Positions 9,267 to 24,710 of a stretch of DNA of 64,000 nucleotides are shown piece after piece. Under the pieces are notes generated by a model. That model had not been told where the DNA came from and searched no databases. It saw nothing but the letters and a program-made list of their open reading frames with translations. Made by a program: the position numbers and the translations under genes. The stretch covers positions 1 through 64,000 of the forward strand of contig WGMW01000005.1 of NCBI GenBank assembly GCA_016124845.1, in the 5' to 3' direction. Origin of the DNA: Flavobacteriales bacterium (GTDB lineage Bacteria; Bacteroidota; Bacteroidia; UBA10329). Each line of letters starts with the position of its first letter. Position 1 is the first letter of the stretch.

Positions 9267-9573
9267 GTCTGATGAGTTTGCGGACCTTCAAAAGAACTCT
9301 TCCCCCTCGGTCTCGCGCTACAATCGTCAGTACATCCAGACCCTGTGAGTAAGATGTGACCTGGCGTTCAACCATGTAAGTTCCCTCAGCGATCTCCATT
9401 GGTTGTGACAGGCGTGTGTTCTCCACTTGATTGACTGCAAGATAGACCGCACCCATGTCTGTCCGTGACCAGGATGCCAACCGCCCTATCTGAAACAGGG
9501 ATGCAGCTATCACAAAGGCGAGTATGCTCAGCGCAGCAGTTGTTTCCAATAGACCGGATGCCTTCAGTTTCAT
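9250..9573 (-). CDS. Prepilin-type minor pseudopilin, GspI/GspH-like
   Basis: 107 residues. The N-terminus KLKASGLLETTAALSILAFV is an atypical class III signal: cleavage after Ala would give Ser1-Gly-Leu-Leu-Glu5. It lacks the usual Phe at +1. A short C-terminal domain (about 75 residues) fits a small minor pseudopilin of the I type. It is in the operon with a 4-bp overlap upstream and 17 bp downstream. Assignment to I rather than H is by size and order only. Confidence 0.65.
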   Translation of the reverse strand: MKLKASGLLETTAALSILAFVIAASLFQIGRLASWSRTDMGAVYLAVNQVENTRLSQPMEIAEGTYMVERQVTSYSQGLDVLTIVARDRGGRVLLKVRKLIRHEDER

Positions 9574-18934: not shown

Positions 18935-19279
18935 ATGAAAATCAGCTTGTTACCGATGAAGAACCGTAGATCCTATGACACCGCCCTGAAACACCTTATC
19001 AGGCTTGAGCTTGAGAACAGCATTCCCCAAGAGCTTCTGGCCTCCGTTCCAAGAACCAACATCCATCGATGGAAAAATGAATGCGCTTCGAAATATGAAG
19101 GTCATGTCCTGAATGATATTGCCAAGGAACAGTTGGAACTCCTAAAGCAGTTCAATGAACACCGAGTGGCAAAACGAACATTCTCCGCCTATCTCAGAAT
19201 CCTATGCACTTGCAGATCAATTGTTCGGAAAGGAAAAGAACTGAAAATGCTGTTTTCCATGCTCGCGAGGAACTGGTAG
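18935..19279 (+). CDS. Transposase OrfA (HTH protein)
   Basis: 114 residues, basic and helical. RRSYDTALKHLIRLELENSIPQ and VPRTNIHRWKNECA resemble the helix-turn-helix DNA-binding part of two-frame transposases. Its last 75 bases overlap the downstream frame, which lies in -1. In such elements the product alone regulates transposition and a frameshift product is the active enzyme. No canonical A-rich slippery heptamer is present in the overlap, so coupling by re-initiation at 19204 is an alternative. Confidence 0.7.
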   Translation: MKISLLPMKNRRSYDTALKHLIRLELENSIPQELLASVPRTNIHRWKNECASKYEGHVLNDIAKEQLELLKQFNEHRVAKRTFSAYLRILCTCRSIVRKGKELKMLFSMLARNW

Positions 19280-20217
19280 ATGTTGTTCAGCGAGTTCGGT
19301 CTTCGATCGGTATCGCCAAGGCGGTCAGAGCGCTCGGAATATCCAGAACCACCTTTCAGAATTGGCTACTGGAAACCAAAGTGAAATGCAACCACAGTTA
19401 TTTCGGGTGGTGCAACCGTATCAGACCATATCAGTTATCCCACCCAGAGGTGGCGGCTATTAGAAAACTGGTAACCGATGAGCGGTTTCAGTATTGGCCA
19501 CTTTCGTCCATCTTCCATCATGGCTTGCGGGAAAAAACCGTGAGCATGTGTCTTTCCACATTCTACAGATATGTCAGGCTTTTAGGCATCAAACGTGTCA
19601 AATACAAAAAGCCTCCTCCCAAGAAAGGGCTGAGGGCAGAAAGACCACACGACCTGTGGCACACGGATGTGACCATTCTAAAAATGAACGGGCAAAAGCG
19701 CTACCTCCATCTTTTGATGGACAATTATTCAAGATACATTCTCAACTGGAAATTGCAGGAAAGGCTGTTTGGAACAACGGTCAGAACCATGCTTGTTGAA
19801 GCATTGGAAAATTACAGACCGAATGATGTCCGACTGATGGTTGACGGTGGTTCTGAGAACAATAACCTTGAAGTGGATGACCTGATAAAACACTCGGGAG
19901 GAACTATCAGAAAGCTCATTGCTCAAAAGGAGATCGACTTCTCCAACTCCATGGTGGAATCGGTAAACAACCTGATCAAGAACGGCTACCTGAGACCGAT
20001 GGGAACCGATGACCCGAAACAACTACCAGATAGCCTTGAAGGCATCATAAATGACATCAACAATATCAGACCTCACAACGCCATTGGTGGACTCATTCCC
20101 TTTGAGGCTTTGAACGGAATTACCATCAATACGGCAGAAACAAAGCGGCAATTGCAGAAGGCCAGGGCCAAAAGGCTGGAATACAACAGGAAAAATACCT
20201 GCAACAAGTGCATCTGA
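19204..20217 (+). CDS. Transposase OrfB with rve (DDE) catalytic domain
   Basis: 337 residues. An N-terminal helical region includes GIAKAVRALGISRTTFQNW (HTH-like), then HTH_21-like residues, then the integrase core: Asp155 in WHTDVTIL, Asp214 in MVDGGSEN and Glu252 in NSMVESVN. Asp214 and Glu252 are separated by 37 residues, slightly more than the 35 usual for IS3. The catalytic triad and length look intact, so the element may be active. Natural C-terminus with a short basic tail. Confidence 0.85.
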   Translation: MHLQINCSERKRTENAVFHAREELVDVVQRVRSSIGIAKAVRALGISRTTFQNWLLETKVKCNHSYFGWCNRIRPYQLSHPEVAAIRKLVTDERFQYWPLSSIFHHGLREKTVSMCLSTFYRYVRLLGIKRVKYKKPPPKKGLRAERPHDLWHTDVTILKMNGQKRYLHLLMDNYSRYILNWKLQERLFGTTVRTMLVEALENYRPNDVRLMVDGGSENNNLEVDDLIKHSGGTIRKLIAQKEIDFSNSMVESVNNLIKNGYLRPMGTDDPKQLPDSLEGIINDINNIRPHNAIGGLIPFEALNGITINTAETKRQLQKARAKRLEYNRKNTCNKCI

Positions 20218-23631: not shown

Positions 23632-24099
23632 CAATCCTTTGATACGTCCGCTTGAGGCGGACACGCAGTGTGGCCCCAACCTGCATCCTTCGATACGTTG
23701 CTTCGCAACACTCAGGATGACCCAACGCACCATCCGTTCGTCACAGTGCTTCGCTGCACTCAGGATGACCCCCCCCCGTGTCATCGCGGTGGGGGTCATG
23801 GTGAGTGATCCGACCGAAGGGAGGAGTGTATCGAACCATGGAAGGGAACGGAAGCATGAGGGAAATAGTCGAGTTGATGCCTCCAACATACCATCCTTCG
23901 ATACGTCCGCTTGAGGCGGACACTCAGGATGACCCCGCTCCGTGCCATCGCGGGTGGGTCATGGTGAGTGATCCGACCGAAGGGAGGATCGTATCGAACC
24001 ATGGAAGGGAACGGAAGCATGAGGGGAAATAGTCGAGTTGATGCCTCCAACATACCATCCTTCGATACGTCCGCTTGAGGCGGACACTCAGGATGACCC
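23632..24099. repeat. Palindromic repeat cluster, left flank of the GIY-YIG gene
   Basis: Five copies of a 36-40 bp imperfect hairpin (about 23632, then 23684, 23731, 23892 and 24056). On the minus strand most read CATCCTGAGTG - inner stem - CGTATCGAAGGATG; the 23731 copy differs in its right arm. Inner stems vary with pairing kept: TCCGC/GCGGA, TTGC/GCAA and GTGC/GCAC. Two ~120-bp blocks (23771-23890 and 23936-24055), nearly identical, separate the last three hairpins. The section 23684-23935 recurs at 24459-24710. Confidence 0.85.
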
Positions 24100-24108
24100 A
24101 GCGCACCT

Positions 24109-24411
24109 TCAAGAACCTTTACCAAAATCTTTCTTCGCAAGACCCGGCAGGTCACCGAACCGACCTTCTATCAAAGCCAGTTTCTTCTTCCGATTCCAAC
24201 CTTTTACCCGTTTTTCAAATGCTATGGCATCATTGGCATCTAAAAATTGCTGGTGATAGACCAGTTTGACGGGGCGTTTGTTCCAAGTGTAGGCCCTTGG
24301 GTCGTTTCCTGCCTGATGTTGTGCGATACGCCTGTCAACGTCATTGGTAATACCCGTATAGTAGCTTCCATCAGCACACTCAAGAATATAGACATAGAAG
24401 AATCTGACCAT
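24109..24411 (-). CDS. Solo GIY-YIG nuclease-domain protein
   Basis: 100 residues, from ATG at 24411. The motif YVYILECADGSYYTGIT (6-22) covers the GIY and YIG strands, Arg27 is the catalytic arginine, and Glu66 in AFEKRVKGW is the metal-binding glutamate. This is the short, single-domain form (UPF0213-like) with no extra DNA-binding domain. Both sides carry long, nearly identical palindromic repeats (see 23632-24099 and 24459-24710), and the stop codon lies within 10 bp of the left cluster. The nuclease may process or mobilise these repeats; this is inference. Confidence 0.85.
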   Translation of the reverse strand: MVRFFYVYILECADGSYYTGITNDVDRRIAQHQAGNDPRAYTWNKRPVKLVYHQQFLDANDAIAFEKRVKGWNRKKKLALIEGRFGDLPGLAKKDFGKGS

Positions 24412-24458
24412 GGTGGACCTGATGATGATTAAAGGTATGGAATTGCAACGCCTGCGCG

Positions 24459-24710
24459 CATCCTTCGATACGTTGCTTCGCAACACTCAGGATGACCCAA
24501 CGCACCATCCGTTCGTCACAGTGCTTCGCTGCACTCAGGATGACCCCCCCCGTGCCATCGCGGTGGGGGTCATGGTGAGTGATCCGACCGAAGGGAGGAG
24601 TGTATCGAACCATGGAGGGGAACGGAAGCATGAGGGGAAATAGTCGAGTTGATGCCTCCCGCACAACATCCTTCGATACGTCCGCTTGAGGCGGACACTC
24701 AGGATGACCC
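24459..24710. repeat. Palindromic repeat cluster, right flank of the GIY-YIG gene
   Basis: Three hairpin units (24459-24494, 24506-24542, 24667-24706) with one ~120-bp spacer block between the last two, in the same order and orientation as 23684-23935. The two copies differ at only a few scattered bases, so the nuclease gene is bracketed by ~250-bp direct repeats. Confidence 0.85.

Follow-up and report, generated by a model that had tools for sequence, protein, structure and literature searches.

The window analysed here (64,000 nucleotides, positions 1 to 64,000 of contig WGMW01000005.1, assembly GCA_016124845.1, from a Flavobacteriales bacterium) carries a gene for a stand-alone ("solo") GIY-YIG nuclease that is enclosed by long direct repeats, which are themselves built of tagged hairpins. 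A preliminary description had placed this gene, at 24109-24411, between two direct repeats of ~250 bp, and our alignment of the two copies (254 columns, 96.9% identical) bears this out. The repeat inventory was however incomplete, since a third, partial copy (about 23921-24099) and a second hairpin type, with the stem ATGGT, had been missed. The features of the locus are as follows.

24109-24411, minus strand: solo GIY-YIG nuclease gene, 100 aa, Slx1/UPF0213-like (Pfam PF01541); the frame is open to 24486
23683-23935, plus strand: first long direct repeat, on the downstream side of the gene, 96.9% identical to 24458-24710 over 254 columns
24458-24710, plus strand: second long direct repeat, on the upstream side of the gene (96.9% identity, 254 columns)
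About 23921-24099, plus strand: third, partial copy of the direct repeat, 95.6% identical to the first over 180 columns
23685-23721, minus strand: tagged hairpin, stem ATCCT, inner stem GTTGC (half-motif search and fold)
23795-23839, plus strand: tagged hairpin, stem ATGGT (half-motif search)
23893-23933, minus strand: tagged hairpin, stem ATCCT, inner stem GTCCGC (half-motif search and fold)
23958-24002, plus strand: tagged hairpin, stem ATGGT (half-motif search)
24057-24097, minus strand: tagged hairpin, stem ATCCT, ~12 bp from the 3' end of the gene (half-motif search and fold)
24460-24496, minus strand: tagged hairpin, stem ATCCT, ~49 bp upstream of the gene (half-motif search)
24569-24613, plus strand: tagged hairpin, stem ATGGT (half-motif search)
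24668-24708, minus strand: tagged hairpin, stem ATCCT, inner stem GTCCGC (half-motif search and fold)
23731-23769, minus strand: degenerate hairpin with a decayed left side, and a second copy at about 24506-24544 (sequence and fold)
23634-23677, minus strand: further degraded copy, 86-89% identical to the other copies, with the inner stem GTCCGC/GCGGAC intact

The first hairpin type, GTCATCCTGA-[inner stem]-TCGAAGGAT, is present in five copies on the minus strand, the second, GTCATGGTGA..TCGAACCAT, in three copies on the plus strand (23795, 23958 and 24569), and the two types alternate in orientation. The outer arms CATCCT/AGGATG are constant while the inner stems vary (GTTGC/GCAAC, GTCCGC/GCGGAC and AGTGC/GCACT), all of them paired, and intact hairpins of the first type fold better as single-stranded DNA than shuffled sequences (z of -3.2 and -4.4). 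In its strict form the hairpin has 5 copies in the 4.36-Mb genome (65 contigs), all of them at this locus; relaxing the form raises the count to 12, again with 5 at the locus, and to 27 in a class looser still. No Rfam family matched here. Synteny with relatives ends with murI, downstream of which the region varies among them, and a clean empty site for the unit, sought via murI, was not found. At 19204-20217, some 4 kb away from the unit, is an open reading frame that we read as an IS3-like integrase/transposase.

The identification of the gene product as a solo GIY-YIG enzyme is confirmed by the Pfam GIY-YIG profile (PF01541), the only domain matched, with 65 bits against a cut-off of 22.6. 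Residues Y8, Y18, G20, R28, H32 and E66 are invariant among 25 homologues, and they fit an active GIY-YIG site as judged from the alignment. When an AF2 model of the protein (pLDDT 79, with a poorly defined C-terminal tail) was compared with known structures by Foldseek, the UPF0213 members 1zg2 and 1ywl came first, followed by Slx1 chains including those of a flap-DNA complex, all above UvrC; a sequence-profile search of structures matched only 1zg2 and 1ywl. Since Slx1 is a nuclease of branched DNA, a folded hairpin would be a natural substrate for such an enzyme. Stand-alone bacterial GIY-YIG domains have been placed in the Slx1 cluster, and the prokaryotic Slx1 relatives were predicted to act in repair (Dunin-Horkawicz et al., PMC1564403). 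A role in defence is not suggested, because PADLOC matched no defence system.

The arrangement recurs within the same genome. Different hairpins, TTCTCGATACG..ACTCGAACTGAC, surround a second solo GIY-YIG gene (C15:121926), and a third (C15:243374) has yet other hairpins around it. Among loci of the genus, repeats were found on both sides in most cases, the exceptions being locus L031 and two contig-end fragments. L031 also contains a perfect 38-bp palindrome at 2476-2513 (CAACCCTGAAGGTTGGCCGCGGCCAACCTTCAGGGTTG). A further solo gene of the window's genome (L020, G000:C51:1-3000, positions 1-400) lies between two apparent tRNA 3' ends (ggggcttcgtagcgagagggagatttgaactcccg) and adjoins an apparent tyrosine integrase gene; it is apparently carried by an integrated element, not by hairpins.

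A search profile built from nine solo GIY-YIG genes matched 93 of 148 Bacteroidota genomes. Our sample consisted of 60 loci of up to 20 kb from Bacteroidota and 80 from named genomes, at least two of the latter duplicating loci of the first set. The proteobacterial examples were drawn from a plasmid collection, in which NZ_CP119142.1 and NZ_AP026896.1 (N. gonorrhoeae and Aeromonas caviae, 2-5 Mb) are labelled plasmids and are probably chromosomes. Up to 300 bp from the gene, direct repeats stand on both sides of 36 of 57 solo genes in the Bacteroidota sample and of 41 of 76 in the named genomes, as against 2 of 1549 and 12 of 1944 control positions taken in the same regions at more than 2.5 kb from the gene. 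A generic hairpin search with exact 6-bp arms proved too noisy and was disturbed by runs of N. An unbiased search for k-mers enriched near solo genes (TGTCAT.., CGAAGAATC and GAGGAATCT among them) gave the same motif, and the hairpin model derived from it reads GTC-[5-bp stem]-GA-(inner part)-GA-[stem']-C, in which the two GA motifs lie opposite each other and, once the strand folds, may pair as tandem G.A. This model occurs 4.5-4.8 times per kb at up to 250 bp from the gene and only 0.05-0.06 times per kb at distances of 4-10 kb, and with scrambled tags or GA motifs almost nothing is found near solo genes. The proposed enrichment of the gene next to the repeats was thus observed: 88 of 140 solo genes have tagged hairpins both upstream and downstream at up to 300 bp, compared with 6 of 1412 control ORFs and 2 of 335 small ORFs, although this share (63%) may be biased upward since most genes in the alignment with which loci were found are themselves flanked by repeats. 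The remaining 37% of the 140 genes lack hairpins on one or both sides.

Some single loci deserve mention. On Planktothrix agardhii plasmid p1 (L246, 4675-5591) a GIY-YIG unit has an MmeI-type restriction-modification gene on one side and the DISARM gene drmA on the other. At L029 (157-393, genome G004) a short tandem array of CAGTTTCTTTAAAG-type units lies ~1 kb from the GIY-YIG gene. At L190 (about 9420-9479) the 3' hairpin is translated as the C-terminus of the GIY-YIG protein (..VIKDPSLRSG), and such hairpins may yield many spurious or extended ORFs in annotations; phage records gave no match to the GIY-YIG protein of this locus.

At least 17 different hairpin stems occur near solo genes across genomes. 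Because our first stem search demanded pairing, the pairing test was redone with hairpin halves located without any pairing rule. All three variable stem positions were complementary in 123 of 148 hairpins near solo genes, whereas 2000 shuffles gave a mean of 17.5 and a maximum of 31, so that the pattern of constant outer arms and varying but paired inner stems, first recognised in the window, emerges more strongly across genomes. Furthermore, the stem follows the protein. It was common to a protein and its nearest homologue elsewhere (below 90% identity) in 91 of 155 cases (shuffled mean 24, maximum 46 of 5000), and stem sharing climbed from about 0.1 at 30-50% protein identity to 0.62 above 70%. 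For the 47 proteins with paralogues in their own genome, the stem was shared with the nearest foreign homologue in 68% and with the genome's own paralogues in 20% (Wilcoxon p = 5e-6), which argues against a pure genome effect, species relatedness being only partly modelled. Some nearest pairs that cross phyla have unlike stems. The link between nuclease and repeat, at first deduced from position, now has strong support from an independent sample with controls, from stems that vary together with the protein, and from its recurrence in several phyla.

Copy number follows the gene to some extent. For one stem class, the median was 5 copies in genomes with a solo gene and 1 in those without, among 148 Bacteroidota genomes (Mann-Whitney p = 4e-5, Spearman 0.34). 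The suggestion that copy number tracks the gene accordingly holds as a trend, but it fails for part of the gene-less genomes: 12 of 55 hold at least 10 repeats, and up to 242. An abundance of repeats in genomes that never had the gene family had been named beforehand as evidence against the link, and these genomes partly touch on it; since they hold so many copies, the repeats must persist or spread without the gene at present. The idea that the repeat-rich genomes contain a diverged solo gene was rejected, as Pfam GIY-YIG domains were found in them only in frames of 324-759 aa, which from their size we read as UvrC and other multidomain kinds. In the genome with 242 copies and no solo gene (G010; loci L333, L336, L339 and L342), ATTGC-type pairs carry an ATGCT/ATCCT-type pair inserted in the spacer.

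Genome-wide, gene-free hairpins are arranged as inverted pairs with spacers of mostly 10-55 nt and the GTC ends outward; hairpin neighbours in relatives comprised 153 in +/-, 112 in -/+ and 56 in parallel orientation. Of the 89 loci with hairpins on both sides, 49 have the gene enclosed in an inverted hairpin pair, in units down to ~400 bp, and this was seen in Bacteroidota as well as on contigs labelled Alphaproteobacteria, Neomarinimicrobiota, Anaerolineales, Melainabacteria and Clostridia. Gene-bearing and gene-free pairs thereby resemble autonomous and gene-free forms of one element. The unit in the window is not of this minimal kind, as the nearest hairpins on either side of the gene share one direction. 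Target-site duplications were looked for around gene-free hairpin pairs and none were seen; at L190 a direct repeat of 20-27 bp lies outside the hairpins, an isolated case. In one Bacteroidota genome two near-identical gene units lie 6.4 kb apart, with identity that stops at the hairpin on one side. At L358 (G100:C3:125400-128400) and L359 (G074:C86:43800-47400) the whole gene-plus-repeat unit is tandemly duplicated, with periods of about 0.4-0.55 kb and 89-96% identity.

Presence and absence of the unit at orthologous sites was found in proteobacteria. In A. lipoferum the solo gene, with REP dimers on both sides, lies between sufB and sufC. Gene and REP are both absent from this place in A. 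ramasamyi, A. oryzae and Azospirillum sp. B510, whose flanks are 95.5-96.6% identical; with several gene-free relatives, the comparison favours gain rather than loss. In several strains, Sphingobium plasmids carry REP-gene-REP between fnrL and a response regulator gene. At this site TomTYG64 and TYG74 have one solo REP and no gene; the one in TomTYG64 looks like a fusion whose left half corresponds to that of the 5' REP and whose right half to that of the 3' REP. TYG72 and TYG65 have no REP and no gene, and in TomTYG73 the gene is frameshifted. Shinella H4-D48 lacks a unit found in HZN7 and WSC3-e.

The REPs at these sites belong to a known class. CGTC REPs, described in several of the taxa that carry solo genes, "apparently lack a dedicated transposase" (Di Nocera et al. 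2013, PMC3733652), and the repeats that flank solo genes in Azospirillum, Sinorhizobium, Novosphingobium, Sphingobium and Neisseria are CGTC-tagged REPs. The N. gonorrhoeae gene is flanked by dRS3 (11 copies within 800 bp), that of A. lipoferum 4B by GTCATCCCCGCGAAGGCGGGGATCCAG, those of S. meliloti (on the upstream side) and Shinella by GTCATCCTCGGGCTTGACCCGAGGATCC, and that of Sphingobium by GTCACCCCGGGCTTGACCCGGGGT, while CGTCGCCCCGTGCTTGACACGGGGC was read directly in the flanks of the N. aromaticivorans gene; 2 of 12 loci on named replicons (R. tumorigenes and M. bullatum) were not clearly flanked. The likeness to REP sequences and their RAYT transposases that had been remarked on in the window is strengthened by these cases and by the genes within inverted hairpin pairs. 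The window hairpins share with CGTC REPs the paired A-T at the start of the stem (ATCCT and ATGGT) and the predominance of inverted dimers; the tag of the ATCCT type reads GGTC, and CGTC or TGTC in the pairs of relatives. The continuous stem of 8-9 bp with a 4-5 nt loop, present beside the gene in Neisseria and Azospirillum, is replaced in the window by a 5-bp outer stem, GA/GA and a separate inner stem. In place of the CCA tail the window has GG, GC and GT and most relatives C(T), and the proteobacterial gene-flanking repeats end mostly in CCA, CCG or CTA. Because of stem layout and tail we do not class the window hairpins as CGTC REPs. No link between GIY-YIG and REP, RAYT, palindromic elements, dRS3 or REPtron was reported in the literature searched, in which subscription papers were few and preprints lay outside the scope. 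A term search did not find GIY-YIG in PMC6006769 and PMC12306157, both of which cite PMC3733652, and repeat strings gave only unrelated matches in the texts of papers.

We propose, with a probability of roughly two in three, that gene and hairpins are two halves of one REP-like unit, in which the nuclease recognises its own stem type, cuts, and drives spread by way of host repair. The proposal builds on the two-sided flanking, the recurrence across phyla, the co-variation of stem and protein, the position of genes inside hairpin pairs, the presence or absence of the unit at given sites, the catalytic residues and the predicted Slx1-like fold. The enzyme would recognise the folded hairpin, either as a cruciform or as single-stranded DNA on the lagging strand, and would cut at or near its base; repair of the cut by the host could then spread both the hairpin pairs and the gene-bearing pair. 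To our knowledge GIY-YIG nucleases are hydrolytic and do not rejoin DNA, so host repair would have to complete the process.

The same hydrolytic chemistry would suit a homing parasite that cuts gene-free repeat sites into which repair then copies the gene, the repeats themselves being spread by something else. This alternative is unlikely, but it is the most serious of those considered. A match of stem and protein is equally expected if the stem is the target site, repeats are abundant in some gene-less genomes, and the single solo REP of TomTYG64 and TYG74, in TomTYG64 made of the joined outer halves, fits a gene that interrupts its own site. The gene-free Azospirillum sites do not fit, however, since three close species have no REP there and the REP dimers on both sides come with the insertion; moreover copy number rises with the gene, and no other enzyme is known for CGTC REPs (PMC3733652). 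We therefore favour a nuclease that takes part in the spread, together with host repair, over one that homes into repeats. A domesticated nuclease that clears cruciforms or stalled forks at hairpins and moves nothing is improbable, in spite of the Slx1-like predicted fold and the predicted repair role of prokaryotic Slx1 relatives (PMC1564403): it should keep a stable orthologous position and descend vertically, whereas presence and absence at orthologous sites was seen, and patchy occurrence, paralogues with several stems per genome, the frameshifted TomTYG73 copy, tandem duplicates and gene-free sites are traits of a mobile unit. Very improbable, finally, is a passive neighbourhood, in which gene and repeats gather in tolerant intergenic sites such as the variable region downstream of murI, or in which the gene is cargo of another transposase such as the IS3-like frame 4 kb away, as same-size control ORFs of the same regions were flanked on both sides in only 2 of 335 cases and chance leaves the agreement of stem and protein unexplained.

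For a large class of hairpin repeats in bacteria, the reading of gene and hairpins as one unit makes the GIY-YIG nuclease a strong candidate for the responsible enzyme. CGTC REPs, including Neisseria dRS3 and Rickettsia RPE-4/RPE-6, were described in 2013 without a dedicated enzyme and now have a candidate partner. The wider claim, that a minimal Slx1-like nuclease mobilises the GA/GA hairpins as well as CGTC REPs and is their only enzyme, in a system devoid of transposases, recombinases and reverse transcriptases, is tentative and we give it somewhat less than even odds. With stem-matched pairs available, a single small protein and short oligonucleotides would suffice to put the enzyme question to a direct test in vitro. 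If the proposal is true, it suggests a function for many small genes annotated merely as "GIY-YIG nuclease family protein", and it would mean that a REP lifestyle has been achieved in a second, independent manner.

Among known systems, an integron gene cassette, with a single gene between hairpins, was considered and is argued against by the link to one gene family. Transposons with MITEs likewise combine gene-bearing and shorter gene-free units with common inverted ends; they differ in that no DDE or other known transposase is found here and no target-site duplication was seen. As with GIY-YIG homing endonucleases such as I-TevI, the gene is enclosed by a possible target and is polymorphic in presence, but there is no intron, the single domain of 100 aa leaves out a NUMOD-type DNA-binding domain, and many dispersed repeats take the place of one site. 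The solved stand-alone nucleases of the Slx1-like/UPF0213 group (BH0048 and EF2693) agree in family, single-domain size, fold and catalytic residues, while here, unlike in these, the gene is embedded in hairpins; we know of no link of the solved members to repeats. CGTC REPs (Neisseria dRS3, Rickettsia RPE-4/RPE-6) share the GTC tag, the A-T stem start and the inverted dimers, and they flank the same GIY-YIG family in Neisseria, Azospirillum, Sinorhizobium and Novosphingobium; the window hairpins depart from them in the GGTC-like tag, the 5-bp outer stem with GA/GA internal loop and variable inner stem, and the absence of a CCA tail. Finally, the GTAG REPs with their RAYT (TnpA-REP), known as REPtrons, have the same short, tagged, imperfect hairpins, the same genome-wide REPIN-like inverted pairs and the same enzyme gene flanked by repeats. 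Their tag is GTAG, in contrast to the GTC of the hairpins here, and their enzyme is a HUH/Y1 tyrosine transposase, in contrast to the GIY-YIG nuclease, for which only PF01541 was matched. The closest reading is a REP system in which a GIY-YIG nuclease stands in place of the RAYT and would, by analogy, mobilise the repeats.
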